Both the position numbers and the translations under genes were made by a program. From positions 1 through 34,345 of the forward strand of contig CADATP010000021.1 of assembly GCA_902790935.1 (NCBI GenBank): a DNA stretch of 34,345 nt. The letters are read 5' to 3'. Below, piece by piece: positions 5,571-34,199 of the stretch (positions within the stretch are counted from its first letter, which is position 1; every line of letters begins with the position of its first letter). Origin of the DNA: an uncultured Lachnospiraceae bacterium (GTDB lineage: Bacteria > Bacillota > Clostridia > Lachnospirales > Lachnospiraceae). The notes beneath the pieces are model-generated. The model was not told the origin of the DNA and made no database searches. It saw only the letters and a program-made list of their open reading frames with translations.

Positions 5571-8500
5571 TTACATATCCGTAATCTCAGAATGAAGCTT
5601 CTGAAGTGACTTGATCTCGTTATGAGCTCCGGATTTCATATATCTGATACCGTCTGCTGCTGCGCTTGCGGCCGCGATGGTTGTGATATAAGGGATCTTC
5701 TTTCTTACGGCTGCCTTTCTCAAGTAGCTGTCATCATTTACGCTGTCCTTGCCGACAGGTGAATTGATGATAAGATCTATCTCTCCGTTCTCAATAGCAT
5801 CCAGCACATTGGGTCTTCCCTCGTAAAGCTTCTTGATAAGAGTAGCCTTTACTCCGGCCTCCGTAATGATCTCATAGGTCTTTCCGGTAGCAAGGATATT
5901 AAATCCGTCCTCCGCAAACTGCTTTGCAACCTTTGCGACCTCTGCCTTGTCCTTTCTGTTTACGGAGATAAGTACGGTTCCCTCCATAGGAAGAGGTGAC
6001 TGAACGGCCTCCTGTGCCTTTACAAAAGCTTCTCCGTATGAAGGTGAAAGCCCAAGCACCTCACCTGTCGATCTCATCTCAGGTCCTAAGATAGGGTCAA
6101 CCTCCTGGAACATATTGAAGGGGAATGCAGCTTCCTTTACGCCGTAGTAAGGGATCTTCTTCTCCTTAAGTCCGGGAACGGGTGAAGGCTTTCCGGTAAG
6201 CTCCGATGTAATGATTTCTGTAGCAAGAGGAACCATTCTTATATCGCAAACCTTAGATACAAGAGGAACAGTTCTTGATGCTCTGGGGTTAGCCTCGAGA
6301 ACAAATACCTTTCCGTTCTCGATAGCATACTGCATATTCATAAGACCTCTTACATGCATTTCCTCAGCGATCTTTCTTGTGTATTCCTTGATAGTCTTAA
6401 CGTTCTCTTCCGGAATATGAGCCGAAGGGATGATGCAAGCCGAGTCTCCGGAGTGTACACCCGCAAGCTCGATATGCTCCATAACCGCAGGTACGAAAGC
6501 ATGTGTTCCGTCGCAGATCGCGTCGGACTCACACTCCATAGCATGGTTAAGGAATCTGTCGATAAGAATGGGTCTGTCGGGGGTAACACCTACTGCGGCG
6601 CGCATATAATCCGCCATAGCTTCATCATCATATACAACCTCCATTCCTCTTCCGCCAAGTACGTAAGAAGGACGTACCATAACGGGATAGCCGATCTTAT
6701 TGGCGATAGCAATAGCCTCTTCAACCGTAGTAGCCATTCCTGATTCGGGCATAGGGATTCCGAGCTTGTCCATAAGGGCTCTGAACTGATCTCTGTCCTC
6801 CGCAAGGTCAATTACCTCGGGAGAGGTTCCAAGGATCTTTACGCCGTTTTTCTTAAGCTCAGCCGCAAGATTAAGAGGAGTCTGTCCTCCGAACTGTGCG
6901 ATAACTCCGAGAGGCTTTTCCTTCTCGTAGATCGAGAGAACGTCCTCAAGTGTAAGGGGCTCGAAGTAGAGCTTATCGGAGGTATCGTAATCTGTAGAAA
7001 CAGTCTCGGGGTTGCAGTTTACGATTATAGTCTCAAATCCAAGCTTCTTAAGAGCCATAGCCGCATGTACGCAGCAATAGTCAAACTCGATACCCTGTCC
7101 GATACGGTTGGGTCCGCCGCCGAGGATCATGATCTTTTTGTTCTCGGATACGGGATCCTTATCCTCCGAATTGTATGTTGAATAGTAGTAAGCACTGTCC
7201 TTTGTTCCGCTGACGTGAACGCCCTCCCAGCACTCGGTAACGCCGATAGCCTTACGGCGGTTTCTGATATCCTCCTCGGGGATCTCAAGGAGCTTACTTA
7301 AGTACTTATCTGAGAAGCCGTCCTTTTTAGCCTTTGTAAGAGCCTCATCGGAAAGCATATTGCCCTTATTCTTAAGGATCTCCTCCTCTTCCTCTACAAG
7401 CTCTCTCATCTGGTCAAGGAAGTAATGCTTAACCTTTGTTATATCAAAGATTTCCTGCGAGGTAGCGCCCTTTCTTAAGGCCTCGTAGATAAGGAAATAT
7501 CTCTCGCTTGAAGGAACCGAAAGCTTATTAAGGAGCTGCTCCTTTGTAAGAGTGTCAAAGTTTTTAACATGTCCGAGACCGTATCTGCCGATTTCAAGAG
7601 AACGGATTGCCTTCTGGAAAGCTTCCTTGAAGTTTTTACCGATACTCATAACCTCGCCGACGGCGCGCATCTGAGTTCCAAGCTTATCTTCAACGCCTTT
7701 GAATTTCTCGAAGGCCCATCTTGCAAACTTGATAACGACGTAATCACCATCGGGTACGTACTTGTCTAAGCTGCCGTACTTTCCGCAGGGGATGTCCTTA
7801 AGAGTAAGTCCGCAGGCAAGCATCGCCGAAACAAGGGCAATAGGGAATCCCGTTGCCTTTGAAGCAAGGGCAGAGGATCTTGAGGTACGGGGATTGATCT
7901 CGATTACGATGATCCTGTCTGATACGGGATCGTGCGCAAACTGTACATTGGTACCGCCGATTACCTGAACCTTATCAACGATCTTGTAAGCCTGCTCCTG
8001 AAGCCTGTCCTGGCACTCCTTTGAGATGGTAAGCATAGGCGCTGCGCAGAAAGAGTCTCCGGTATGAACTCCGAGAGGATCGATGTTCTCGATGAAGCAG
8101 ACGGTGATCATATTGCCTTCGCTGTCTCTTACTACTTCGAGCTCGAGCTCTTCCCATCCGAGGATGGACTCCTCGACAAGAACCTGACCTACAAGGGAAG
8201 CCTGAAGACCTCTTGCGCAGACGGTCTTTAATTCCTCTTTGTTGTATACAAGGCCGCCGCCGGCTCCGCCCATTGTGTATGCGGGACGAAGTACAACGGG
8301 GTATCCGAGTTTGTCTGCGATTGCAAGGGCCTCATCCACCGAGTAAGCAACTTCGGAGCGAGCCATCTCGATTCCGAGACTGTCCATAGTCTTCTTAAAC
8401 TCGATACGGTCCTCGCCGCGCTCAATGGCATCAACCTGGACGCCTATAACCTTAACATTATACTTGTCAAGGATTCCGGCTTTGTTGAGCTCTGCACAGA

Positions 8501-8792
8501 GGTTAAGTCCGGACTGTCCTCCCAGATTGGGAAGCAGGGCATCGGGGCGCTCCTTGGCGATGATCTGTTCAAGCCTCTTTACGTTGAGAGGCTCGATATA
8601 TGTAACATCAGCAGTCTCAGGGTCAGTCATAATAGTTGCGGGGTTTGAGTTAACAAGTACGATCTCGTAGCCGAGCTTCTTTAAAGCCTTGCAGGCCTGA
8701 GTGCCTGAATAGTCGAACTCGCAGGCCTGTCCGATGACGATAGGGCCGGATCCGATAATAAGCACTTTGTTGATGTCTTCACGTTTAGGCAT
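5571..8792 (-). CDS. carB: Carbamoyl-phosphate synthase large subunit
   Basis: Makes carbamoyl phosphate from bicarbonate, ATP and ammonia delivered by the glutaminase subunit CarA, feeding pyrimidine and arginine synthesis. At 1073 residues it has the full family length. The two homologous ATP-grasp halves are complete: the first begins KVLIIGSGPIVIGQACEFDY, the second KKIMILGGGPNRIGQGIEFD (near residue 550). The C-terminal MGS-like regulatory domain (about 935-1073) ends the protein and normally binds UMP/ornithine-type effectors. The ATG at 8790-8792 follows AAGGAAGG with 8-nt spacing. No carA lies next to it; the next gene upstream is uraA. The 158-bp gap to uraA contains several hairpins, the last with a T run only about 27 nt before the start codon, which suggests transcription attenuation. 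Confidence 0.97.
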   Translation of the reverse strand: MPKREDINKVLIIGSGPIVIGQACEFDYSGTQACKALKKLGYEIVLVNSNPATIMTDPETADVTYIEPLNVKRLEQIIAKERPDALLPNLGGQSGLNLCAELNKAGILDKYNVKVIGVQVDAIERGEDRIEFKKTMDSLGIEMARSEVAYSVDEALAIADKLGYPVVLRPAYTMGGAGGGLVYNKEELKTVCARGLQASLVGQVLVEESILGWEELELEVVRDSEGNMITVCFIENIDPLGVHTGDSFCAAPMLTISKECQDRLQEQAYKIVDKVQVIGGTNVQFAHDPVSDRIIVIEINPRTSRSSALASKATGFPIALVSAMLACGLTLKDIPCGKYGSLDKYVPDGDYVVIKFARWAFEKFKGVEDKLGTQMRAVGEVMSIGKNFKEAFQKAIRSLEIGRYGLGHVKNFDTLTKEQLLNKLSVPSSERYFLIYEALRKGATSQEIFDITKVKHYFLDQMRELVEEEEEILKNKGNMLSDEALTKAKKDGFSDKYLSKLLEIPEEDIRNRRKAIGVTECWEGVHVSGTKDSAYYYSTYNSEDKDPVSENKKIMILGGGPNRIGQGIEFDYCCVHAAMALKKLGFETIIVNCNPETVSTDYDTSDKLYFEPLTLEDVLSIYEKEKPLGVIAQFGGQTPLNLAAELKKNGVKILGTSPEVIDLAEDRDQFRALMDKLGIPMPESGMATTVEEAIAIANKIGYPVMVRPSYVLGGRGMEVVYDDEAMADYMRAAVGVTPDRPILIDRFLNHAMECESDAICDGTHAFVPAVMEHIELAGVHSGDSACIIPSAHIPEENVKTIKEYTRKIAEEMHVRGLMNMQYAIENGKVFVLEANPRASRTVPLVSKVCDIRMVPLATEIITSELTGKPSPVPGLKEKKIPYYGVKEAAFPFNMFQEVDPILGPEMRSTGEVLGLSPSYGEAFVKAQEAVQSPLPMEGTVLISVNRKDKAEVAKVAKQFAEDGFNILATGKTYEIITEAGVKATLIKKLYEGRPNVLDAIENGEIDLIINSPVGKDSVNDDSYLRKAAVRKKIPYITTIAAASAAADGIRYMKSGAHNEIKSLQKLHSEITDM

Positions 8793-8950: not shown

Positions 8951-10309
8951 TTACTCCTCTTCGGGAGCTTTCTTTAAGATCAGATTGGTAAGAATACCAA
9001 GGATAAGAGCACAAGCAACTTCGGTAATTGTAACGGAACCGAAGTGAAGCGTAAGTCCGCCGATACCGGCGATAAGGATTACGGATACAACGAAGAGATT
9101 CTTGTTCTTGTTAAGGTTAACATTCTGGATCATCTTAAGACCGCTTACTGCGATAAATCCGTAAAGAGCCATACATACGCCACCCATTACACAGCTGGGA
9201 ATTGAATTAACAAATGCGATGAAGGGAGAGATAAAGGAAATGATTATCGCTCCGCAAGCTGCGGTGATGATGGTGTAAACAGAAGCGTTCTTTGTAATGG
9301 CAACACATCCGATTGACTCACCGTATGTGGTGTTGGGACATCCGCCGAAGAAAGCACCAACCATAGAGCCGATACCGTCTCCTAGAAGAGTTCTGTGAAG
9401 ACCGGGATCCTTTAAAAGATCCTTCTCGATGATGGTTGAAATGTTCTTGTGGTCAGCGATATGCTCGGCAAATACAACGAATGCAACAGGGACATAAGCT
9501 GCTGCGATGGTTCCGATATAGGATGCGTTAAGCTCTCCGAATCCTGCATGAAGGAAGGTAAAATCGGGAACTGCAAGGAAGGTCTTGATGCTTACACCGC
9601 CGTCAACAAGATTCTTGAAAGAATCAAAGGAAAGGATCTTGATGGCATCGATGCCTGCTGCATTTCCGATAAGAGTAAGGCAAAGAGCACATGCATATCC
9701 GGCGAGGATACCGAAGATAAAAGGAATAAGCTTTGCGGTCTTCTTTCCGTAGGTTGAGCAAAGCATTGTAACTGCTAAAGTAACAAGTCCGACGCAAAGA
9801 GAAGCGATAGGGCTGGCAACTGCAGCGCCTTCCGCGTCCTTAACTCCGCCGGTAAGGATATCTCCTACAGCGTTTCCCGCAAGGGAAAGTCCGATGATGG
9901 CAACGGTAGGTCCGATAACAACTGCGGGCATAAGCTTGTTGATCCAATCAACACCTACAAGCTTAACGATAAGAGCGATAACTACATATACAAGTCCGGC
10001 AAAAACGGCACCAAGGATAAGTCCTACATATCCGAGGCTCATTGAAACGCCGCCGGCAAAAGCCGCTGCCATAGAACCTAAAAATGCGAAAGATGAACCG
10101 AGGAACACGGGGCTCTTTCTCTTAGTAAAGAGAACATAAATAAGGGTTCCTACGCCGGCACCGAAAAGAGCTGCCGCGGGGCTCATGTTATTGCCGATGA
10201 TAATGGGAACAACAAGAGTAGCTGTCATGATAGCAAGAAGCTGCTGAATTGCGAAGACGACGAGAGGTCCGAATTTAACCTTGTCATCTACGTTGTAAAT
10301 GAGTTTCAT
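8951..10309 (-). CDS. uraA: Uracil permease, NCS2 nucleobase:cation symporter
   Basis: Imports uracil across the cytoplasmic membrane with a cation. The 452-residue protein is largely hydrophobic, with about 12-14 membrane segments. It carries NCS2 features, including the N-terminal FAIQQLLAIMTATLVVPIIIG and NTTYGESIG at residues 326-334, typical of UraA/PyrP. The frame is open upstream to 10399, but I chose the ATG at 10307-10309: AGGAG lies 6 nt before it, and the protein then starts MKLIYNVDDKVKFG as family members do. A clear promoter lies 105 bp upstream. The neighbouring carB gene suits a pyrimidine-salvage/synthesis role. Xanthine or another base is possible, but the motif favours uracil. 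Confidence 0.92.
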   Translation of the reverse strand: MKLIYNVDDKVKFGPLVVFAIQQLLAIMTATLVVPIIIGNNMSPAAALFGAGVGTLIYVLFTKRKSPVFLGSSFAFLGSMAAAFAGGVSMSLGYVGLILGAVFAGLVYVVIALIVKLVGVDWINKLMPAVVIGPTVAIIGLSLAGNAVGDILTGGVKDAEGAAVASPIASLCVGLVTLAVTMLCSTYGKKTAKLIPFIFGILAGYACALCLTLIGNAAGIDAIKILSFDSFKNLVDGGVSIKTFLAVPDFTFLHAGFGELNASYIGTIAAAYVPVAFVVFAEHIADHKNISTIIEKDLLKDPGLHRTLLGDGIGSMVGAFFGGCPNTTYGESIGCVAITKNASVYTIITAACGAIIISFISPFIAFVNSIPSCVMGGVCMALYGFIAVSGLKMIQNVNLNKNKNLFVVSVILIAGIGGLTLHFGSVTITEVACALILGILTNLILKKAPEEE

Positions 10310-10353
10310 AGATTTCTCCTCCAAATTGTAAATACCTTGTCTTTTGGTTATAA

Positions 10354-10369
10354 ACACAAGATGTTGTGT
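10354..10369 (-). other. Small hairpin in the uraA leader
   Basis: ACACAA (10354-10359) and TTGTGT (10364-10369) form a 6-bp stem with a 4-nt loop in the roughly 100-nt uraA 5' untranslated region. I see no PyrR-binding consensus or known riboswitch in the leader. Confidence 0.3.
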
Positions 10370-10414
10370 AAAAGTTGACATAATATAAGCTATGACCACT
10401 ATTTACCGACATAA

Positions 10415-24312: not shown

Positions 24313-24342
24313 TTTACACGCTCAGCGCATGTGTGCTATAAT
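24313..24342 (+). promoter_or_regulatory. Promoter of the HD-GYP/BMP unit
   Basis: TTTACA (24313-24318), an 18-bp spacer and TATAAT (24337-24342), preceded by TGC. The layout is the same as the uraA promoter. The start should be near 24349, leaving a 120-nt leader. Confidence 0.75.
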
Positions 24343-24352
24343 CGAGCCAAAG

Positions 24353-24426
24353 GCACTTATGCTCTACATATCGTAATTTTAAGGTTCTAAAGAGTTTTGC
24401 ACTTAAAAACTTTGGATTTGCACTAA
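24353..24426 (+). repeat. Repeated GCACTTA/TTTGCACT motif in the HD-GYP leader
   Basis: TTTGCACT occurs at 24396-24403 and 24417-24424, exactly 21 bp apart, each followed by an A-rich tract. GCACTTA also occurs at 24353-24359. The repeats lie downstream of the predicted start, so they could be a DNA operator (two helical turns apart) or an RNA element. No c-di-GMP riboswitch pattern is recognisable. Confidence 0.4.
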
Positions 24427-24469
24427 AATTTGTTCTTCATATAAGTAGTAAGTACGAGGAGATCGAGTT

Positions 24470-27400
24470 ATGAAAAGATGGAAGACCTGGCAAATCGTTC
24501 TTTTTATTGCATTATCAGTCGGGCTGAATATAGGCGGTAAGCAGATCACGACGCATTTTAACCTGCCGCTTTGGGGAGATTCCGTTGGAACTGTCCTCTG
24601 CGCATATATCGGCGGCCCTTTTTGCGGCGGAGTAGTCGGACTTACAAGTAACCTTGCCTACAGCGTTGTAAACTTACGCTCTGCTTTTTATTCCGTTACG
24701 AGTATTGCTCTTGGCCTTATCATCGGCTATGGTGCCAAGAAAAAATGGTTCAAAGAATTCTACGGGTTTATGAAAGCCGCCTCTCTCGCTATGCTCATAG
24801 GCCTTGTCGTATCCGTCCCCCTAAACATTATCCTTGACAACGGTTATACCGGAAACACCTGGGGAAACGGCATCATCGATTATCTCTCAGACAAAAACTT
24901 CCCACATTTCCTGGCTTGCATCATAGGTCAGCTGGCTCTGGAGTTTGTTGACAAGATCATTACTGTTTCCGCAGTCTATATTGTTATCATTATAAGGCGT
25001 TTCAATAAGAGCACAAAACTCTCGCAAAAAACCGTATCAGCCGTTCTTATAGCGGCTCTTTGCTTTTCTTTCTTTTCTTTTTTCCAAAGTGATCTTGAAG
25101 CTGACGAGGCCGCATCCGACGTTTCTGCGGTTTCTGATATTTCTACGGATCCGAGGGATTACAATGACTACGTTCAAACCGTATACAGCAGCAACAACGG
25201 TCTTCCCTGCGGCGAGGCAAACGATATCGTCCAGACCAATGACGGAGTCATCTGGATCGGAACCTACGCGGGACTTTACCGCTACAACGGCCGTGAGTTT
25301 CGCTGGATAGACAATTATGAATCCGTCAAAAACGTCAACTGTCTTTATGTAGATGAAGAGGGTCGTCTTTGGATCGGTACCAATGACAACGGTCTTTCAA
25401 TTTCAATTTCCGAAAATATCGTAAATGTCATTGACGCAGAATCCGGTCTTCCTTCAAACTCTGTACGCTGCATCACGAGAGCAACCGACGGTTACTACTA
25501 TGTCGGAACAACGAGCAGTATGCAGATCCTTGTTCTGAACAACGGTCTCAAAGCCACAAACACCTTAGAGGAAATATCCGGCGCCGACAGTATTTCGGCC
25601 AACGAAAGCGGATTTGTTGCTACTATCGATTCTGCGGGACGTCTTTATCTTTTAAATAGCGGAAATATCGTCGGCTCCATCACATCCCCGGATGAAAACG
25701 AAGCCTTCAACTGCTGCGTCTTTTCTCCCGACGGAAAGCTTATGGTCGGCTCTTCTACAAATCATATCTATCTTTACGATATAAGCGGAAACAAGTTTAG
25801 TCTTATCGAGCAAAAAACCTGTGAAGACGTAGCCGGTATAAATAATATCAATTACCTTGAAGACGGTACCCTCTTTATCTCAACGGACAGCGGAGTATCC
25901 TATATTGATGAGGCGGGCTACCACAAAATAAATACAAACGATTTTAACAATTCCATCGACAATATGCTCTATGATTACCAGGGTAACCTTTGGTTCACCT
26001 CTTCAAGGCTTGGACTTCTTCGTATGGCGAGATCTCCCTTTAAGGATGTATACGGCTCGGTAGGTATGGAGCGTAAGGTCGTAAACGCAATAGTCCTTTG
26101 GGATGGCAAGTACTATATAGGAACGGACAAGGGGCTTGACGTTGTAGACAAGGCCTGCCGGAAAAGCTACGAAAACGAGATAACTGAAGAGCTGCGTGAT
26201 AAACGTATCCGCTGCATGTACGTTGATTCAAAGGATCACCTTTGGATATGTACCTACGGAAGCGGACTTGTGGAGCTTGCTCCCAAGGGAAGCTTTTGGA
26301 CCTACAACGCCGAAAACGGCAGCTTCGGAAACAAGGCAAGGATCGTTACGGGGCTTTCCGACGGCACAATACTGGCTGCCGGTGATAACGGTCTCAGTTT
26401 TATTAAAAACCATACAATAGAAAAGACTATCAGCAACGAATCCGGCCCTATCAATTCTATGATACTTACGGTTACGGAGCTTAAGGACGGAACAATCCTT
26501 GCGGGAACCGATGGTGATGGTATCGCCCTGATAAAGGACGGCAAAGTTACTGATATGCTTACAAGGGATGACGGTCTTAGCAGCGACGTGATCCTCCGCA
26601 CAGTAAAGGATCCAAAGTCCGAAGGCGTGTTTATCGTTACAAGTAACGGCCTTTGCTATATGGATGAACAGGGGCAGATACGCACACTTGACAAATTCCC
26701 ATATTATAACAACTACGATATCTGGGTAAAGGATGAGGATACCCTCTTTATCATGTCCAGTGCGGGAATCTATGTTGTTGAAAGAGATGAACTCGTATCC
26801 GGAGGTGAAATGGCCTGGGAGCTTTTGGATGCAAAGAAAGGTCTCGGAACCTCCCTTACCGCCAACTCCTGGAACTACTACAACGGAAAAGGGGAGCTTT
26901 TCCTTCCCTGCGATACAGGTGTATATATAATCGATGTTGAAAAATACAACAGCGATGTCCGCTCATATCGAATGCAGCTTGCCTCCGTAAAGACAGACGG
27001 CAATCTCATTCCGATGGCCCGCACGGGTGCAATAACCATCGGTCGCGGAGTAAATCGTGTTGAGCTCTCTCCCGAAATACTAAACTACACGATCCAGGAG
27101 CCTAATGTGGGTTACTTCCTTGAGGGCTTTGACTCCCAGTGGACCATCATCCCGCAAAATAATCTCAACAACATAATCTACTCAAATCTGCCTGCGGGTA
27201 ACTATGTCTTCCATCTTGCCATATTTGACAGCGCCGGAGATCACATCCTTGAAGAAAGGGAATTTGATCTGGTAAAAGAAGGAGAGATTTACGAGCAGTC
27301 CGGCTTTACCTTCTATATGCTCCTTATCCTTTCTTTGATGATCGTCTGGTTTACGTGGCTGATCGTTCAAAGACAGCTTCACCAGCAGCAGATAAAGTTG

Positions 27401-28129
27401 AATATGGCCAACGAAACAGTTATGGCTATTGCAAACGCAGTCGATGCTAAGGATGTCCGCACCCACCAGCATTCCACAAGAGTAGCGGAGTATTCAATGC
27501 TTATCGCTGAAGAAATGAACTGTTTTAAGTGGTGGCAAAGACGAAAGGCTATCTCAAATATAGGAAAAGCAGCCCAGATGCACGACATCGGAAAGATCGC
27601 GATCCCCGACAGAGTCCTTAATAAAGTCGGAAGACTCGACGACGAAGAGTACGCTATGATGAAATCCCATGTAATCCGCGGCGCGGAAATACTTAAGGAC
27701 TTTACTCTTGTTGACCATGTTCTTGACGGTACAAAATACCACCACGAAAGATATGACGGAAAAGGCTATCCCGACGGGCTTTCCGGCACAGATATTCCTC
27801 TTTTTGCAAGAATCATCAGTGTAGCGGATAGCTTTGATGCCATGACCTCAAACCGTGTCTACAGACACCATATGGATACGGACTATGTTATGAATGAAAT
27901 GCGGCGAGGCCGGGGAACACAATTTGATCCCGATGCCCTCGATGCCTTCCTCAGACTTGTAGATAAAAAGGTTATCGATCTTGATAAGATATACGCCCAA
28001 AAGCGTATGGAGATTGACCAGGCTGATGAAGCAGCTCAGTCCGAATTAAAAAGAAGGGCGGAAGAAGATAAAAAGATTCAGCAGGAAGAAATAAAGCAGT
28101 CAGCTGATGAGAAAGGAGCAGGGAAATGA
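24470..28129 (+). CDS. HD-GYP c-di-GMP phosphodiesterase with S-component-like membrane domain and propeller sensor
   Basis: Predicted to hydrolyse cyclic di-GMP in response to an outside signal. The 1219 residues run in this order. About 1-180 is a polytopic domain resembling ECF-transporter S components (GDSVGTVLCAYIGGPFCGG). A further membrane helix lies near 190-207. About 230-820 holds roughly 14 Reg_prop repeats (GVIWIGTYAGLYRYNG, GRLWIGTNDNGL, HLWICTYGSGL), enough for two seven-bladed propellers. A Y_Y_Y domain (about 830-935, YFLEGFDSQW) and a membrane helix (about 946-966) follow. The HD-GYP domain (about 985-1170) has MHDIGK (His1038, Asp1039), YHHERYDGKGYPDG (GYP 1099-1101) and DSFDAMTSNRVYR, all canonical. 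A charged tail ends the protein. GAGGAGAT precedes the ATG. The stop overlaps the next ATG. The propeller layout matches hybrid two-component sensors, but the output is a phosphodiesterase. Confidence 0.9.
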   Translation: MKRWKTWQIVLFIALSVGLNIGGKQITTHFNLPLWGDSVGTVLCAYIGGPFCGGVVGLTSNLAYSVVNLRSAFYSVTSIALGLIIGYGAKKKWFKEFYGFMKAASLAMLIGLVVSVPLNIILDNGYTGNTWGNGIIDYLSDKNFPHFLACIIGQLALEFVDKIITVSAVYIVIIIRRFNKSTKLSQKTVSAVLIAALCFSFFSFFQSDLEADEAASDVSAVSDISTDPRDYNDYVQTVYSSNNGLPCGEANDIVQTNDGVIWIGTYAGLYRYNGREFRWIDNYESVKNVNCLYVDEEGRLWIGTNDNGLSISISENIVNVIDAESGLPSNSVRCITRATDGYYYVGTTSSMQILVLNNGLKATNTLEEISGADSISANESGFVATIDSAGRLYLLNSGNIVGSITSPDENEAFNCCVFSPDGKLMVGSSTNHIYLYDISGNKFSLIEQKTCEDVAGINNINYLEDGTLFISTDSGVSYIDEAGYHKINTNDFNNSIDNMLYDYQGNLWFTSSRLGLLRMARSPFKDVYGSVGMERKVVNAIVLWDGKYYIGTDKGLDVVDKACRKSYENEITEELRDKRIRCMYVDSKDHLWICTYGSGLVELAPKGSFWTYNAENGSFGNKARIVTGLSDGTILAAGDNGLSFIKNHTIEKTISNESGPINSMILTVTELKDGTILAGTDGDGIALIKDGKVTDMLTRDDGLSSDVILRTVKDPKSEGVFIVTSNGLCYMDEQGQIRTLDKFPYYNNYDIWVKDEDTLFIMSSAGIYVVERDELVSGGEMAWELLDAKKGLGTSLTANSWNYYNGKGELFLPCDTGVYIIDVEKYNSDVRSYRMQLASVKTDGNLIPMARTGAITIGRGVNRVELSPEILNYTIQEPNVGYFLEGFDSQWTIIPQNNLNNIIYSNLPAGNYVFHLAIFDSAGDHILEEREFDLVKEGEIYEQSGFTFYMLLILSLMIVWFTWLIVQRQLHQQQIKLNMANETVMAIANAVDAKDVRTHQHSTRVAEYSMLIAEEMNCFKWWQRRKAISNIGKAAQMHDIGKIAIPDRVLNKVGRLDDEEYAMMKSHVIRGAEILKDFTLVDHVLDGTKYHHERYDGKGYPDGLSGTDIPLFARIISVADSFDAMTSNRVYRHHMDTDYVMNEMRRGRGTQFDPDALDAFLRLVDKKVIDLDKIYAQKRMEIDQADEAAQSELKRRAEEDKKIQQEEIKQSADEKGAGK

Positions 28130-29316
28130 AGCGAGTATATATAACCACAGTAGTAACTTGCATTATCATATTGGCCGCTCTTATGACCTGTCTTAAGCTA
28201 ATGAATTTAAAAGGCACAAAAGATCACCTGACCATCGGCTTTATCTATGACAACGACGAAAGCACCCCTTACACATACAACTTCTCTCTTGCCAAGGATG
28301 CCCTTGAAAAGGAATACGGGGACAAGATCGATATACTAAGCTGCAGCAATGTACTTGATGATGAGATGGAGGAGCCCTTAAGAGAGCTTGCCGAGAGCGG
28401 TTGCGATATCATCTTCTTTAACGGATACAGCGAGATGGTTATGCAGCTTGCTCCGGATTACCCGGATACACAGTTTTGCCAGACTTCATATATGGATATG
28501 AACGGCGTTGCCGTCCCCGAAAACTACCACACCTTTAAAGGCGAGGCTTATCAGGGAAGGTATGTCAGCGGAATCGCTGCCGGGATGAAGATCAATCAGC
28601 TTATCGAAGAAGGAACTATAAACGCAGATGAGGCCCTTGTAGGATTCGTCGCCGCCTTTCCAACATCCGAAGTCATCTCCGGCTACACGGCTTTTATCCT
28701 CGGAGTACGCTCTATTGTTCCGGAAGCCAGGATGGAAGTATCCTACACAAATACCTGGAGCAGCTACGCTCAGGAAAAGGCAGCGGCCAACAAACTGATA
28801 TCCGACGGATGCACCGTCATCTCCCAGCACACCGATACCATCGCTCCCGCAATCGCCTGCGAAGAAGCCGCCGGCACAAAGCCCGTTTACTTTGTCGGTT
28901 ATAACCAGAGTATGTCAGAGGTAGCCCCGGAAACAAGCCTTGTAACTTCAAGGATATGCTGGGAACCCTATATTCTCTCGGCTGTAGACGCCGTTATGAC
29001 GAATAAAAAAATTGAGAAAAATGTTGCAGGCCGTGTTCACGGCTCAGATATTTCCGCCGGATTTGAAAAGGGATGGGTTGAGATGATAGACCTAAACCTC
29101 CCGGTGGCCGCTCCCGGTACAAAACAGGCTATGAACAGCGCCATCGACAGCTTTAAACGCGGCAACAGAGATTTTGTATTTCGCGGAGACTACACCGGCG
29201 TAAAGCATGACGACCCCTCCGTTACAATAGACCTCCATAACGGCTATATCGAAAACGAGAACACCTCATACCCGCTCTTCGATTACATCCTCTCCGACAT
29301 CATCACAATAGTATAA
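28126..29316 (+). CDS. BMP/PnrA-type substrate-binding protein, membrane-anchored
   Basis: Periplasmic-binding fold protein of the BMP family, whose known members bind purine nucleosides. The 396 residues have an N-terminal hydrophobic helix (about 5-24), then the two-lobed binding domain: LTIGFIYDNDES, ESGCDIIFFNGY, YQGRYVSGIAAGM, GFVAAFPTSEVISGYTAF, NKLISDGCTVISQHTD. The position before Cys22 (ALMTC) is a poor lipobox, so it is more likely a helix anchor than a lipoprotein. It starts by ATGA overlap with the HD-GYP gene, with AGGAG 7 nt upstream inside that gene. No ABC ATPase or permease of a nucleoside importer lies nearby, so a sensing role with the HD-GYP protein is inferred. The ligand is unknown. 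Confidence 0.87.
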   Translation: MKRVYITTVVTCIIILAALMTCLKLMNLKGTKDHLTIGFIYDNDESTPYTYNFSLAKDALEKEYGDKIDILSCSNVLDDEMEEPLRELAESGCDIIFFNGYSEMVMQLAPDYPDTQFCQTSYMDMNGVAVPENYHTFKGEAYQGRYVSGIAAGMKINQLIEEGTINADEALVGFVAAFPTSEVISGYTAFILGVRSIVPEARMEVSYTNTWSSYAQEKAAANKLISDGCTVISQHTDTIAPAIACEEAAGTKPVYFVGYNQSMSEVAPETSLVTSRICWEPYILSAVDAVMTNKKIEKNVAGRVHGSDISAGFEKGWVEMIDLNLPVAAPGTKQAMNSAIDSFKRGNRDFVFRGDYTGVKHDDPSVTIDLHNGYIENENTSYPLFDYILSDIITIV

Positions 29317-29385: not shown

Positions 29386-30600
29386 TCACGACCTAAGCGC
29401 CTCTATAGGCGTCATTTTGGCTGCTTTTTTTGCGGGATAGAATCCGAAAAATATTCCTATAGCCATTGAGAATACCGCGGATAATAGTATAAGTGCAATG
29501 TTAAAATCAGGTAAAACCGATATATTTGCCGCGCTTTTTGCAATCAGGCTGATAAGAAGTGAAAAGCCATATCCGCTTATTATCCCTATTACTCCTCCGG
29601 TCAAGGATATAAGTCCCGATTCAATGAGAAACTGCCAGAGGATCGCTTTAGTTCCGGCTCCGAGAGATTTCCTTATTCCGATCTCCCTTGTCCTTTCGGT
29701 AACCGATACAAGCATAATATTCATAACTCCGACTCCGCCTACAAAAAGAGAAATAGCGGCGACGAGCATTACAAAAACGGTAATACCCGTCATTATAGAC
29801 GAAAACTGCGATACACCGGAATTAAGCTCATATGTCTTAACCTTTTCCTCTCCTCTTTCGTTTAAGGCCGCAGCCACATACATCTTCCCCTTTGCCGCCA
29901 TCTGTGGAGCGCTCTCGGGTTTATCCACAAAAACCATAGCATCATATATGGCATCCGGATCGATTCCGAAGAGATTATAGAGAATAGTGGAGGGCATCTC
30001 AAGTGTATGGGTATTTCCTCCAAACATCAAAGCAGAAATAGCCGACGCAGACTTCCTGATCCCCAAAACCTTTACATCAACTTCTCTTCCGAGGATATCA
30101 AGAGATATCGTTTTCCCGATAGCATCAGTATTGCCGAAAATCTCTATGGCAGTGTTTTCATCTATGATGCAGACTTCCTTGGCTAAATCGTAATCAAATT
30201 CATCAAAATATCTTCCCTGCACGATCTCGGCAGAATTTTTAAGCTCAAGGCTCGGGGATCCGCTGCTTATCCTGATCTTAACTTCTTCTTTTTTACCCTT
30301 TGCCGTAGCATTTACGCTAAGTACTTCCGTATAGCTTATATTCTCGTCGTACTTTGAAACAAGATTGTCAAGGATCTTTCTGTTCATAGGCTTTCCTTCG
30401 TTCGTATAGATCTCATAATACGAACCGGCCAAGGAGCTTAAGGAACCTGATATAAAATTACTCATTCCCTTTCCGATGGACATGATCGTTACAACGCTTG
30501 ATATACCTATGATGATACCAAGCATAGTAAGAAACGCACGAACCTTGTTTGAACGTACATTAAAAAATGCCATTTTCCAATAATCAAGAAAAATACCCAT
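29386..30600 (-). CDS. MacB/FtsX-type ABC transporter permease 2
   Basis: Membrane subunit of a MacAB/YknXYZ-like exporter, a family that moves or extracts peptides, antibiotics or envelope substrates by mechanotransmission. The 404-residue protein has one N-terminal helix (about 18-45), a large outside MacB_PCD domain (about 50-265), and three C-terminal helices in the FtsX domain. VSVTERTREIGIRKSLGA lies in the coupling region, and FFGFYPAKKAAKMTPIEALR is at the end. It lacks a fused ATPase domain. It follows the first permease by 3 nt and is the last gene of the operon. Ribosome-site sequence before its ATG is weak (CAGGAGTAGACA region overlapping the previous stop), consistent with coupling. 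Confidence 0.93.
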   Translation of the reverse strand: MGIFLDYWKMAFFNVRSNKVRAFLTMLGIIIGISSVVTIMSIGKGMSNFISGSLSSLAGSYYEIYTNEGKPMNRKILDNLVSKYDENISYTEVLSVNATAKGKKEEVKIRISSGSPSLELKNSAEIVQGRYFDEFDYDLAKEVCIIDENTAIEIFGNTDAIGKTISLDILGREVDVKVLGIRKSASAISALMFGGNTHTLEMPSTILYNLFGIDPDAIYDAMVFVDKPESAPQMAAKGKMYVAAALNERGEEKVKTYELNSGVSQFSSIMTGITVFVMLVAAISLFVGGVGVMNIMLVSVTERTREIGIRKSLGAGTKAILWQFLIESGLISLTGGVIGIISGYGFSLLISLIAKSAANISVLPDFNIALILLSAVFSMAIGIFFGFYPAKKAAKMTPIEALRS

Positions 30601-30603
30601 TGT

Positions 30604-31845
30604 CTACTCCTGCCTAAGGGCTTCGATTGGATTTAACTTTGCCGCCTTTTTTGCGGGGTATATTCCGAAGAAGATACCGATCGCCGCAGAAAAGAACGTT
30701 ACCGCTATAATAACCTGCGGTGTTACTAACGCAACCACATTTATCCCGATGACCTTACTCATAATAAAACAGATCAGCTCTCCCCCGAGATACCCGAAAA
30801 GAATTCCAAAAATCCCTCCGAGGCACGTAAGTACTCCGGCCTCCGCAAGAAATTGTATCATTATTGATGATGTCCTTGCTCCCAAGGATTTTCTGATTCC
30901 GATCTCTCTTGTCCTTTCGGTTACTGAAACCAGCATAATATTCATTACTCCGATACCTCCGACCATCAAAGAGATGGCGGCTACGAAAGAAATAAAGATC
31001 GTGATATAGTTTATGACTTTCATTATGCTTTCCATATAGGACGTGAAGGATATATATGAAATCTTTTTTTGTCCTACCAGTTTTTTTCTTGCCTCAAGAA
31101 AGCTGATGATCTTTTTAATAGTCCCTTCAGCTTCCTCGGCAGAGTCAGGCTTAAAGAGGATCTGTTCGAATGAGTCATCTTCATTTCCGATGATCGCGTT
31201 GTATGTGGAGTAGGGCATATCGAATTCCACTTCATCCTCAAAATAAACCATTTCATACAGCTCCGAATCGGACTTTCCCTTTACTCCCACAACTTCAAGC
31301 TCGCAGCTTGTGCCCTCAATTTCAAATGTGAAGGTCTGTCCTACAACATCCGTATGTCCAAAGAGATTCTTGGCACTGTTTTGAGCAAGAACGCAAACCC
31401 TCGCTTCGGAGTCATATTCCTCTTCTGTAAAGTATCTTCCCGCCACAAAGGGCTTCGGATTAGCAATGATGTAATCCGGAGTTACGGCACAGTAGTATGT
31501 GACAAATTCTCCCTTTTTTGACAAAGACGTAGCATAGCCGGCTTTTTCCATGGATAAGGATGCCACATGATCTATCTTTTCCTTAGCACTTTCCACATCC
31601 CCCCGGTTAAAAAAGGCCTCGGGAAAGATCTCCCCCAAAAGGTTTCCGGCCATTATGTAGGTCTGTCCGCTGAAGGCATTGTTAAGCTGTCCCGATACGG
31701 AATTCTTTACGCCGTTTCCTACAGATACGATCATAATAACGGACCCGATTCCGATTATGATCCCAAGCATCGTAAGGACCGACCTCATCTTGTTACTCCA
31801 TATGCTTTTTAATGAAATTTTCAAATATTCCAGAAGCTGGCCCAT
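30604..31845 (-). CDS. MacB/FtsX-type ABC transporter permease 1
   Basis: Paralogue of the permease that follows it. The 413 residues have the same plan: a first helix (about 20-42, SVLTMLGIIIGIGSVIMIVS), an outside domain to about 275, three helices, the identical VSVTERTREIGIRKSLGA motif and a GIYPAKKAAKLNPIEALRQE end. The two permeases probably form a heterodimer with two copies of the ATPase. It starts 1 nt before the adaptor's stop region ends, so it is in the same operon. Substrate is unknown. Confidence 0.93.
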   Translation of the reverse strand: MGQLLEYLKISLKSIWSNKMRSVLTMLGIIIGIGSVIMIVSVGNGVKNSVSGQLNNAFSGQTYIMAGNLLGEIFPEAFFNRGDVESAKEKIDHVASLSMEKAGYATSLSKKGEFVTYYCAVTPDYIIANPKPFVAGRYFTEEEYDSEARVCVLAQNSAKNLFGHTDVVGQTFTFEIEGTSCELEVVGVKGKSDSELYEMVYFEDEVEFDMPYSTYNAIIGNEDDSFEQILFKPDSAEEAEGTIKKIISFLEARKKLVGQKKISYISFTSYMESIMKVINYITIFISFVAAISLMVGGIGVMNIMLVSVTERTREIGIRKSLGARTSSIMIQFLAEAGVLTCLGGIFGILFGYLGGELICFIMSKVIGINVVALVTPQVIIAVTFFSAAIGIFFGIYPAKKAAKLNPIEALRQE

Positions 31846-31846
31846 A

Positions 31847-33445
31847 TTAGTTACCTGCGGTTATTAAAGACATACTTTCGGGAGAAACCATCGCGGGCAT
31901 TCCCTCAGTGATCGTTCCGGTATATGTGCTGATGATAATATCTCCCTCCTCAAGTCCGGACTTTATCTCTATATAGAAATCTCCGGATACTCCCGTCTCG
32001 ACATACTTCTTTCCGACTATCATAGTGGCCGGATCCATTGTGTAAACAAACTCTCCGGTATTATCTACATTGACGCTCTCAACAGGGATCCTGATACAGT
32101 CGGCCAGGGTCGCAAGTGTGATAGTACACTTGGCATCAATTCCTAAGTAAATATTATCATCAGGATCGTCGATGGATACCGTGACCATAACAAGGGAAGA
32201 ATTACCGGTCTGGGTAACCATATGATTGATGGTCTTTACCTCGCCGTTATATGTATTTCCAAGTATTTTTATCTTTGCCTTCTGACCCTCTTTTAGATGT
32301 TCAAGGTCGGTCTTAGTAACACCGATGGTTACATGAACATCATCAAGACTTGAGAACGTAACAAGTGGCGTACCGGCTACCGTTGTATCGTCTTTCGTAT
32401 AGCCTACCGAAGTAACTACACCGTCAAAAGGAGCGATAAGTCCTTCGGCAAACATCTCTATTGAATCATAATAGTTTTCATTTTGAATACTCTGCATCTC
32501 CTCGGAGATTTCAAGAGACTTTTTGTCATACTCGCTGGCTATTGTTGCCTTGTAGGATTTCATCTCGGATTCGGCTGCAGCTTTTTCAGCCTTATACTCT
32601 GCAAGAAGAGCATTCGCTTCCGAAACTTTTTTCTGGTTATCATAGGCTGCGGCGGAGGAGCTCTGTTCCTGTATCTGACGGCTTATATTTGATATCTCAG
32701 CCTGCTTTTTATATACATAATCCTCGTAGTTTTTAAGCCATTCGGTCTCTTCCGCCGTGGGGGTATACATAAAAGCCGTAACCTTTGAGTACATTTCTTT
32801 ATTCTTAAACTGATAATCAGAAAGCTCATTGTTTGAAATAGAAAGCTGGGTATTCAGTGCCGCAGTCCAGTGGGCAGACGCATCGGTAACGTCCTTTTCG
32901 AGCTGGTCTACAACCGCCTGCTGGTCATTTACAAGCTGAGAATACTTTTTAAATCTTCCCGCAGCCTCGTAGTACTTGTTTTCATTATCCTTATTTTTCG
33001 CAACCGCGCCCTCGTAGGAGCTCTCCGCGGACTGGGATTTAAGAAGCGCAAGACGAAGGGATGTGTTATAGGAATCCTCATTGAAAAGAAGGATTGGTTC
33101 ACCCTTTTTTACAAAGCTTCCGCTTCCTTTGATATCATCAATAAGGATTGCATCGGGAGCGGTATAATGTATTGTCTTTTCGCTCTCCACATTACCGGAG
33201 ATAGTCACATCGCTGATAAGCTCCCCTCTTGAAACCTCCTCTAAAGTAACCGTTCCTCCCATCATGGACTTCATCGCTTTTCTCGCTCCGAAGATGATTA
33301 TCCCGATAAAGATTGCTATTACGGCCAGAATAGAGAAAACTATTATGAGAGCGGTTTTCTTCTTTCTCTTTTTCTTTTTTATCTCAAGCTTTTCCTGTGA
33401 ACTGAGATTTGCATCAAGTTCCCTGTTTCTACTCTTAACAGACAT
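31847..33445 (-). CDS. Membrane-fusion adaptor protein, MacA/YknX-like
   Basis: Periplasmic-adaptor-type subunit that binds the FtsX permeases outside the membrane. The 532 residues have a very basic N-terminus (KKKKRKKK at 23-30) and a membrane helix at 31-53. A split lipoyl/barrel-sandwich region follows (GELISDVTISGNVESEKT, later APFDGVVTSVGYTKDDTTVAGTPLVTF; quoted in parts). Between the halves is a long coiled-coil hairpin (about 125-330), rich in Lys, Glu, Ala and Gln. Beta-barrel and membrane-proximal domains end the protein. The start is ATG 33443-33445, with AAAGGAG 6 nt upstream and 1 nt after the ATPase stop. The frame is open further upstream but only inside the ATPase gene. Confidence 0.93.
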   Translation of the reverse strand: MSVKSRNRELDANLSSQEKLEIKKKKRKKKTALIIVFSILAVIAIFIGIIIFGARKAMKSMMGGTVTLEEVSRGELISDVTISGNVESEKTIHYTAPDAILIDDIKGSGSFVKKGEPILLFNEDSYNTSLRLALLKSQSAESSYEGAVAKNKDNENKYYEAAGRFKKYSQLVNDQQAVVDQLEKDVTDASAHWTAALNTQLSISNNELSDYQFKNKEMYSKVTAFMYTPTAEETEWLKNYEDYVYKKQAEISNISRQIQEQSSSAAAYDNQKKVSEANALLAEYKAEKAAAESEMKSYKATIASEYDKKSLEISEEMQSIQNENYYDSIEMFAEGLIAPFDGVVTSVGYTKDDTTVAGTPLVTFSSLDDVHVTIGVTKTDLEHLKEGQKAKIKILGNTYNGEVKTINHMVTQTGNSSLVMVTVSIDDPDDNIYLGIDAKCTITLATLADCIRIPVESVNVDNTGEFVYTMDPATMIVGKKYVETGVSGDFYIEIKSGLEEGDIIISTYTGTITEGMPAMVSPESMSLITAGN

Positions 33446-33446
33446 T

Positions 33447-34199
33447 TTATTCTCCTTTTGCTTCTTCCTGTGCTCTTGCCAATTCTTCTCTGATTTCCTC
33501 TTCGCTCTTGCCATCTGCGGATGTCTCATCCTTATAGATCTCACCGTCCATAATGTGGATGATCCTGTCAGCCTTTGCCGCAATAGTTGGGTCGTGGGTG
33601 ATAATGATAACCGTTCGTCCCTCGTCATGCAGCTTCTTAAGGATCTCAAGGATCTCTGCGCTGGACTTTGAATCAAGGTTACCTGTGGGCTCATCCGCAA
33701 GTATGATAGGCGGAGCCTGGGCAATCGCTCTTGCTATCGCAACTCTTTGCTGCTGTCCTCCGGACATTTCAGACGGCTTATGGGTCATTCTTTTTTCAAG
33801 TCCGACTTTCTTTAACGCTTCCCTTGCAAGTTCAATCCTCTTTGCCTTCGGAACCCTCCTGTATATAAGCGGCAGCTCAACATTTTCAAGGGCCGTCAGG
33901 GACGGTATCAGATTGAAACCCTGAAAAATAAAGCCTATCTCCTTATTTCTTATATCCGAAAGTTCATCATCAAGCATCTCCGCCACGTCCCTGCCGTGCA
34001 AAAGGTACGTACCCGAAGTCGGCACATCAAGACATCCAAGCATATTCATAAGAGTAGATTTTCCCGAGCCCGATTGACCGATTATGGCTACAAACTCCTT
34101 CTCTCCTATTTTTAATGAAATATGATTGAGCGCTTTTACTTCATTTTCTCCCGGGTTATATATCTTCGACATATCCGAGATCTCTATCAGTTCCGGCAT
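33447..34199 (-). CDS. ABC transporter ATPase, MacB/LolD/YknY type
   Basis: Cytosolic motor of the exporter. The 250 residues contain Walker A GQSGSGKST (41-49), Q-loop FQGFNLIPSLTALENVELPL (Gln93), signature SGGQQQRVAIARA (from 146), Walker B IILADEPTGNLD (Glu170) and the switch His202. These motifs place it in the LolD/MacB-type exporter ATPase group. An acidic C-terminal tail (SEEEIREELARAQEE) follows. I chose the ATG at 34197-34199 because AGAGGAAA lies 7 nt upstream; an in-frame start at 34265 has no ribosome site. It is the first gene of the four-gene operon, and its upstream region carries phased direct repeats. Confidence 0.95.
   Translation of the reverse strand: MPELIEISDMSKIYNPGENEVKALNHISLKIGEKEFVAIIGQSGSGKSTLMNMLGCLDVPTSGTYLLHGRDVAEMLDDELSDIRNKEIGFIFQGFNLIPSLTALENVELPLIYRRVPKAKRIELAREALKKVGLEKRMTHKPSEMSGGQQQRVAIARAIAQAPPIILADEPTGNLDSKSSAEILEILKKLHDEGRTVIIITHDPTIAAKADRIIHIMDGEIYKDETSADGKSEEEIREELARAQEEAKGE

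Follow-up and report, generated by a model that had tools for sequence, protein, structure and literature searches.

What kind of system is encoded by two overlapping genes that combine importer-like binding parts with an output domain for cyclic di-GMP (c-di-GMP)? The pair lies in a 34,345-nucleotide stretch of DNA from an uncultured Lachnospiraceae bacterium (contig CADATP010000021.1), and the whole of this stretch is called the window here. Gene 1, the sensor gene, joins a membrane domain resembling the S components of energy-coupling factor (ECF) transporters to Reg_prop propellers, a Y_Y_Y domain, a membrane helix and an HD-GYP domain; gene 2 encodes a BMP/PnrA-family binding protein. The anatomy of this unit, its co-inheritance and its genomic associations were observed directly. 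Tentatively, and as something close to an even call, we favor the reading that the two genes form a surface receptor, likely for nucleosides or nucleobases, that would control c-di-GMP breakdown.

Conservation of the gene pair

An earlier interpretation of this DNA, the sequence-only reading, had described one 1219-residue protein whose gene overlaps the start of the BMP/PnrA gene by ATGA, and both the open reading frames and the overlap were confirmed. The two genes run in one direction and are inherited together, and each start is preceded by a ribosome site (GAGGAG at 24456-24461 for gene 1, AAAGGAG for gene 2).

Conservation was assessed in 299 genomes of the window's family and in 391 genomes drawn over its class. 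Among the family genomes, 104 matched the S-domain query and 83 the BMP query at E ≤ 1e-40; the BMP scores split into an upper and a lower set, with nothing between 367 and 227 bits. All 23 genomes of the upper BMP set carried the sensor, adjacent in 22 and split by contig ends in G112. S-domain matches below E 1e-29 occurred in 26 genomes, with the BMP gene beside the sensor in 22; G112 has a cut BMP piece at its contig end, and G151 a short contig with a broken frame. In the class sample, 3 of the 391 genomes had the BMP clade (the window's own and two others of the family), and all six close S-domain matches from outside the family were free-standing genes.

A further set of 80 loci comprised the best 80 of 567 relatives, 71-78% identical and hence close ones. 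They are mostly from Lachnospiraceae or Butyrivibrio and mainly from ruminant samples, with a few metagenome-assembled genomes named Ruminococcaceae, Oscillospiraceae, Christensenellaceae or Clostridia. S, propeller and HD-GYP matches lay directly upstream of the BMP gene in 69 of these loci, the other 11 being contig-end cuts. The distance from the sensor stop to the aligned BMP start was -4 in 68 of the 77 loci measured, and the same overlap occurred in 15 of the 22 pairs of the family sample, window included. L171 is no exception to the pairing, having only a longer tail behind HD-GYP. When the neighbors at 25 loci were clustered, the sensor and the BMP family each appeared at 24, and the next commonest neighbor at 8. 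A search for the pair across Lachnospiraceae, proposed in the sequence-only reading as a check, thus found it conserved together with no other common neighbors, and a chance neighborhood was rejected on the same grounds.

Domain architecture of the sensor

The gene 1 protein passed the Pfam cut-offs for Reg_prop (82.1 bits, cut-off 20.4), Y_Y_Y (35.6, cut-off 26.6) and HD_5 (123.6, cut-off 27.2). Its N-terminal 215 residues have 161 homologues at E ≤ 0.001 (120 of them listed), so the architecture (Table 1) is not a product of chance. The domain set of the sequence-only reading (S-like domain, Reg_prop, Y_Y_Y, helix and HD-GYP) was recovered, but its "about 14" repeats were not directly counted, since only 5 Reg_prop stretches pass individually.

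Table 1. Positions of the gene pair and its features in the window
Feature	Position	Strand	Basis or remark
Promoter-like site TTTACA-18-TATAAT, TG before -10, upstream of the unit	24313..24342	+	Consensus match only
Gene 1, 1219-amino-acid S-component-like/propeller/Y_Y_Y/HD-GYP protein, predicted pre-polyprotein	24470..28129	+	Open reading frame and domain matches
S-component-like membrane domain, residues 5-182	24482..25015	+	
Membrane helix 7 as putative internal signal peptide	25028..25102	+	Predicted signal peptidase I site LEA|D after residue 211; loose motif only
Propeller region, residues 230-845, Reg_prop repeats	25157..27004	+	Pfam and structure matches
Y_Y_Y domain, residues 882-924	27113..27241	+	Pfam
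Membrane helix continuing into signaling helix, residues 946-993	27305..27448	+	Full-length model
HD-GYP domain, residues 988-1155	27431..27934	+	Pfam; HD and GYP signature residues intact
ATGA stop/start overlap of genes 1 and 2	28126..28129	+	Open reading frame positions
Gene 2, 396-amino-acid BMP/PnrA-family binding protein	28126..29316	+	Open reading frame and domain match
N-terminal hydrophobic anchor of the BMP protein, residues 1-30	28126..28215	+	No lipobox match

The best Protein Data Bank (PDB) matches of the full-length model were the two-propeller ectodomains 3ott, 4a2l and 3v9f. With both domains above cut-off and a two-propeller ectodomain, the protein belongs with the Reg_prop/Y_Y_Y sensors; it falls outside the Reg_prop hybrid two-component systems, as its output is HD-GYP and not a histidine kinase with a receiver. 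The likeness extends to BT4663, a heparin sensor according to its PDB title, and its relatives, and many relatives of the window's sensor come from rumen samples, a habitat rich in glycans. Both facts would suit an alternative in which the propellers sense a glycan, as in the Bacteroides hybrid sensors, with the S domain and the BMP protein merely modulating and the nucleoside link incidental. However, the sole constant partner of the sensor is the BMP protein and no other gene is common beside the pair, and we consider glycan sensing quite unlikely.

The output domain aligns with HD-GYP enzymes of known structure. Both signatures (HD and GYP) and the other conserved, metal-binding His and Asp residues are invariant across 63 sequences (alignment A3, with 62 of the 120 listed homologues), in agreement with the canonical c-di-GMP-type output domain read earlier from the letters, and make it a putative c-di-GMP phosphodiesterase. 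The position that we take to be that of the third-metal residue Glu185 of PmGH is an Arg here.

The S domain and its free-standing relatives

Structure prediction and fold comparison gave the N-terminal domain a six-helix S-component fold, as expected from the S-component-like character assigned to it in the sequence-only reading. NCBIfam NF045596 (CD3073-family ECF S component) matched residues 11-178 at E 3.5e-17, with 62.6 bits against a curated cut-off of 180, and five free-standing relatives likewise fell under this cut-off (68-153 bits). Pfam ECF_trnsprt (PF12822) gave no match to the window protein at E ≤ 1 and was passed by one free-standing relative (34.5 against 30.7 bits). A plain 5TMR-LYT domain was ruled out: PF07694 stayed below its Pfam cut-off (16.9 against 24.6 bits), and the extra N-terminal helix H0 of that domain is missing, the model's first helix (6-30) aligning with the S-component core from residue 5. 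When the S piece was searched by itself as a fragment, 18 short homologues came up, none of them a free-standing S component.

Free-standing S genes were collected from the 13 best-scoring loci with frames of about 205-222 amino acids and 7 lower-scoring ones, 20 regions in all; L224 held no S gene below 260 amino acids and L213 gave two, leaving 20 genes. These nearest relatives, 25-35% identical, stand in ECF operons, and in 17 of 20 the gene immediately downstream is EcfT. Ten representative neighbors were assigned by Pfam to purine/uridine phosphorylase-family proteins, inosine-uridine hydrolases, PfkB kinases, DeoC, EcfT and an S component. A phosphorylase or hydrolase lay within 1.5 kilobases (kb) of 12 of the 20 genes, compared with 0/30 for FolT-type and 0/30 for BioY controls (the 30 best-scoring loci of each); the Fisher p of 2e-9 ignores relatedness, and the enzyme search seeds were taken from the test loci. 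No nucleoside phosphorylase or hydrolase matches were found in 1.12 megabases around the 80 sensors, so the receptors themselves do not stand beside nucleoside enzymes. Nor does the window's S domain have EcfT or EcfA partners in its operon, where the next gene is BMP and no third gene is common.

The CD3073-type ECF S components at L211-L223 and L225-L230, mostly with EcfT/EcfA and often adjoining nucleoside phosphorylases or hydrolases, are likely a nucleoside ECF importer family; no paper on the substrate of CD3073-type S components was found in the open-license literature. With free-standing relatives so often in nucleoside-enzyme operons, the S domain is not best viewed as the vitamin-type binder of the sequence-only reading, although the fold stood. 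Furthermore, BMP-family proteins with solved structures bind nucleosides, according to the available passages of two reports (PMC7093131, PMC13325309). Thus, the two importer-like parts of the unit agree in indicating nucleosides.

In the 63 sensors, invariant columns number 34 of 178 in the S domain compared with 194 of 616 in the propellers, and there are none in residues 183-229. Moreover, two other propeller sensors of the genome (L028 8473-12720 and L029 4176-8168) have no S domain. Greater variability and dispensability of this kind would be expected of a mere membrane anchor or folding aid that binds no ligand, but the best conserved polar and aromatic residues of the S domain are those it shares with the free-standing S components, and we hold such a passive role to be highly improbable.

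Related receptors and the EcfT module

The same S domain occurs on other outputs in the window's genome and its relatives, joined through a propeller either to a histidine kinase, receiver and Hpt or to GGDEF. In a second receptor type, likewise in this genome and relatives, an S domain without propeller is fused to HD-GYP or to a hybrid kinase. In an unrooted tree of 53 S domains, a branch (100/99) set off 27 propeller-type receptors together with 12 free-standing domains, 8 of them phosphorylase-linked, and a further branch separated the propeller-fused S domains from the free-standing ones (95/86). Six second-type receptors grouped with 3 free-standing domains, 2 of them hydrolase-linked (97/88), with two long branches meeting within the second type. 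These two groupings imply at least two joins, if transporters came first.

Individual loci illustrate this variety. At L028 6319-15081 (C8:30318-39080 of the window's genome), a 713-amino-acid second-type receptor with S domain and HD-GYP stands just upstream of a propeller hybrid kinase (1415 amino acids) and an HD-GYP protein (782 amino acids); its S domain groups with free-standing S components, two of three hydrolase-linked. L121 5735-10537 (contig C53 of the same genome) encodes an S domain, propeller, histidine kinase, receiver and Hpt in 1600 amino acids, with an HD-GYP gene directly upstream. The proteins at L125 7438-11427 and L118 1996-5829 combine S domain, propeller and GGDEF, that is, the same input module with a c-di-GMP-making output. 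The single EcfT detected in this genome lies in an EcfA-EcfA-EcfT-truA-type module (L292 3-3109, contig C5), behind which an EAL-like protein, identified by reading, is encoded on the opposite strand.

A putative internal signal peptide

In the region between the S domain and the propellers (residues 183-229), positive residues occur together with a hydrophobic core and an ending of the small-x-Ala type. The loosest cleavage motif was present in 63/63 close sensors and in 14/17 and 9/9 diverse ones. The strict form, [AVST]xA, occurred in 59/63 (46.7 expected from shuffles), 14/17 (10.7) and 9/9 (6.2), a weak test, compared with 1/6 (2.0) in the second receptor type and 3/120 (3.0) and 7/22 (4.2) in BMP anchors; several sequences in this test were cut at 270 residues, and the second-type control was repeated on whole sequences. 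A sharper motif, which also asks for a bulky or polar residue at -2, was picked with the sequences already in view, so that the test was not blind. It was found in 53/63 close sensors and 21/26 diverse propeller fusions against shuffled means of 24.0 and 9.3, counts reached by 0/1000 shuffles; on whole sequences the diverse count was unchanged at 21/26 (9.3). The controls showed no clear excess: 0/6 in whole second-type sequences (0.9 expected), 0/120 in BMP anchors (2.1) and 4/22 in the BMP anchors of set A1 (2.7, reached by 294/1000 shuffles).

Since the S domain already sets the topology, a cut chain would best account for retention of the motif, and from these patterns signal peptidase I probably cleaves the gene 1 product where the S domain meets the propeller. 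Such cleavage behind a polytopic domain occurs in LtaS. The single receptor protein of the sequence-only reading is indeed one open reading frame, but with the predicted cut it may be two chains.

The A-x-A-type site at this junction, the EcfA-EcfA-EcfT-truA module of the genome and the contexts that mark the free-standing relatives as ECF subunits also accord with another scheme. In it, the cleaved-off product is a normal S component importing a nucleoside-type compound through the shared EcfA-EcfA-EcfT, the fusion fixes expression only, and the BMP protein and propeller sensor alone sense. However, most free-standing relatives (17 of 20) adjoin their own EcfT, whereas around the sensors no gene beyond the pair is common, and the propeller-fused S domains branch apart from the free-standing ones. 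On balance, this import scheme appears unlikely.

The BMP protein

The gene 2 protein scored 92.8 bits with Pfam BMP (PF02608; cut-off 24.1), as its assignment to the BMP/PnrA family in the sequence-only reading required. Neither it nor any of the 22 proteins of set A1 matched a lipobox. Among 120 close homologues, 18 matched a strict and 19 a loose lipobox pattern, with the hydrophobic stretch continuing behind it; because of these 37, a general absence of lipoboxes from paired BMP proteins was no longer claimed. The protein lacks the long linker of three importer-type lipoproteins compared. Against eight importer-type BMP proteins (one verified in an ATP-binding cassette (ABC) operon), 59 conserved columns are shared and 7 differ, so ligand binding has probably been kept. 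A conserved aromatic residue, W211, aligns with a Phe of pneumococcal PnrA.

No importer adjoins this gene: besides the sensor gene, its neighbors are export genes of the MacB/FtsX type on the opposite strand, and the absence of ABC importer genes alongside had been stated correctly in the sequence-only reading. Directly behind the BMP gene, at 29386-33724 on that strand, lie two MacB/FtsX-type permeases and an HlyD-type protein, which are export-type ABC parts and hence not an importer. Elsewhere in the genome, contig C1 (L003 6905-11991) carries a complete BMP-ABC operon (BMP, ATPase, permease, permease), and the importer-type core of the paired BMP protein would allow it to be an extra binding protein of that importer, with the sensor merely an operon mate. 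The C1 operon already has its own BMP lipoprotein, 40% identical to the paired protein, and so is not the true partner of the sensor-linked one; BMP-ABC genes elsewhere as true partners were rejected for this reason. Moreover, the paired gene keeps its position behind the sensor, and its product has a hydrophobic anchor near the domain and, despite the 37 of 120 homologues matching, no lipobox in the window or set A1. An extra importer protein is therefore improbable.

A tentative mechanism and its weighing

We infer the ligand, cleavage, docking and enzyme output of the receptor as follows. The six-helix domain would fold as an S component that keeps the polar and aromatic residues of its free-standing, ECF-operon counterparts. 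Helix 7 would act as an internal signal peptide with a likely signal peptidase I cut behind it, so that the S component would stay in the membrane and the mature sensor would consist of propellers, Y_Y_Y domain, one membrane helix and HD-GYP. The membrane-anchored BMP protein, with its importer-type conserved core, would capture ligand and dock on the ectodomain formed by propellers and Y_Y_Y, in the way that NspS docks on MbaA. Docking may alter the dimer and, via the continuous helix 946-993, c-di-GMP phosphodiesterase activity. The S component could serve as a co-receptor, or could load the genome's shared EcfA-EcfA-EcfT module, tying uptake to signaling.

A bolder version, which we hold possible but doubtful, takes gene 1 for a polyprotein split by signal peptidase I into a working nucleoside S component and a propeller HD-GYP sensor that would join the anchored BMP protein in a transceptor of three proteins. 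The same nutrient would then be read by two unrelated binding devices of importer type, one within the membrane and the other outside it, which would set c-di-GMP and so couple the supply of nucleosides to lifestyle in rumen Lachnospiraceae.

Several observations weigh against the nucleoside receptor. Regarding the ligand, 8 of the 20 free-standing S genes have no phosphorylase or hydrolase within 1.5 kb, and the link derives from neighbors of homologues about one-third identical or less, mutually related, and from search seeds supplied by those same loci. The closest solved relatives of the BMP protein are 3s99 and the atrazine-binding 6pi5. In the HMMER alignment with Lbp (7x0r), its N260 stands opposite an Asp that we equate with Asp225, the ribose-binding residue of BmpA, which leaves room for a nucleobase or another compound as ligand. 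Heparin, sensed by a Bacteroides Reg_prop protein according to the title of 4a2l, represents a competing ligand class. Regarding the architecture, the window's own site, LEA|D, is only of the loose type and the sharper motif was defined post hoc; the full-length model has a predicted template modeling score of 0.43, so that its placement of domains relative to each other is untrustworthy. The AXXXA motif of helix 1 (EcfT coupling) is not evident by eye in the window or the free-standing relatives, and the count of a single EcfT comes from a genome 82.7% complete. Finally, G009 and G248 have the sensor without a BMP gene, and the sensor frame ends early in 3 of the 77 measured loci (gaps 73, 287 and 666).

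Should the receptor reading prove correct, several orphan parts would gain ligands, namely the CD3073-type S components, a c-di-GMP receptor with propellers and an anchored BMP protein, and nucleosides would be connected with c-di-GMP in rumen bacteria. The unit would be a case of importer parts turned receptor with importer relatives still available for comparison, and would show an internal signal peptide as the link between a membrane protein of transporter type and a sensor. Each proposed step is testable using few purified proteins, and the bolder transceptor reading is cheap to test.

Genomic surroundings

About 14 kb from the unit, on the other strand, a xanthine/uracil permease-family gene (8951-10399) adjoins that of a carbamoyl-phosphate synthase large chain (5571-8792). 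A GGDEF protein at 713-2494 is a candidate diguanylate cyclase, and the genome as a whole holds 28 GGDEF matches (27 above cut-off) and 11 HD_5 matches. Promoter-like sites in the window are not in excess (6 found, 8.2 expected from shuffles), and scans of the window against Rfam, tRNA and PHROGs gave no matches.

Comparison with known systems

S-component-fold receptors and binding-protein-coupled c-di-GMP receptors are already known. The S-component fold is used in signaling proteins, including fusions to GGDEF and EAL, as the available passages of Partipilo and Slotboom 2024 (PMC11109136) report; the S-fold receptor element is thus not new, and the unprecedented combination of the sequence-only reading holds only for the union of parts. 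The main text of that paper does not mention HD-GYP, propeller or BMP. As far as its available passages go, the 5TMR-LYT receptors share with ours an S-component fold in a signaling protein, but ours has no H0, matches NF045596 rather than PF07694, and carries an extracellular next domain at a junction that looks cleavable, whereas theirs is cytosolic. In the open-license literature, we did not find the union of S domain, binding protein and propeller HD-GYP sensor, or the internal signal peptide, and the passages seen there on Reg_prop with HD-GYP do not describe the gene 1 architecture.

The S domain is of one sequence family with the CD3073-type ECF S components (NF045596 being nearest) and has the same pocket-type residues, but those are free-standing, mostly with their own EcfT/EcfA, in operons with nucleoside enzymes. 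The BMP protein shares family and conserved core with the importer lipoproteins BmpD (PMC7093131) and BmpA (PMC13325309), in the available passages on them, and with Med-type 2hqb, a BMP-family regulator named transcriptional activator of comK. Unlike the importer proteins, it is anchored and sensor-paired, with no conserved adjacent ABC importer genes.

The Reg_prop/Y_Y_Y sensors BT4663, BT4673 and BT3049 have the same two-propeller and Y_Y_Y ectodomain, and, in the available passages of PMC6637768, Xanthomonas GdpX2 and GdpX3 carry Reg_prop/Y_Y_Y on c-di-GMP-type GdpX (GGDEF) proteins; here the output is HD-GYP, an S domain stands in front and a BMP protein is the partner. NspS-MbaA of Vibrio cholerae is alike in that a periplasmic binding protein and a membrane c-di-GMP enzyme make one receptor. 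According to the available passages of PMC5646818 and PMC8967002, NspS binds polyamines and MbaA is a GGDEF-EAL protein, without S component, propeller or HD-GYP. In both systems, a binding-protein gene adjoins that of a membrane c-di-GMP enzyme, but the families differ, and the relation is one of likeness, not membership.

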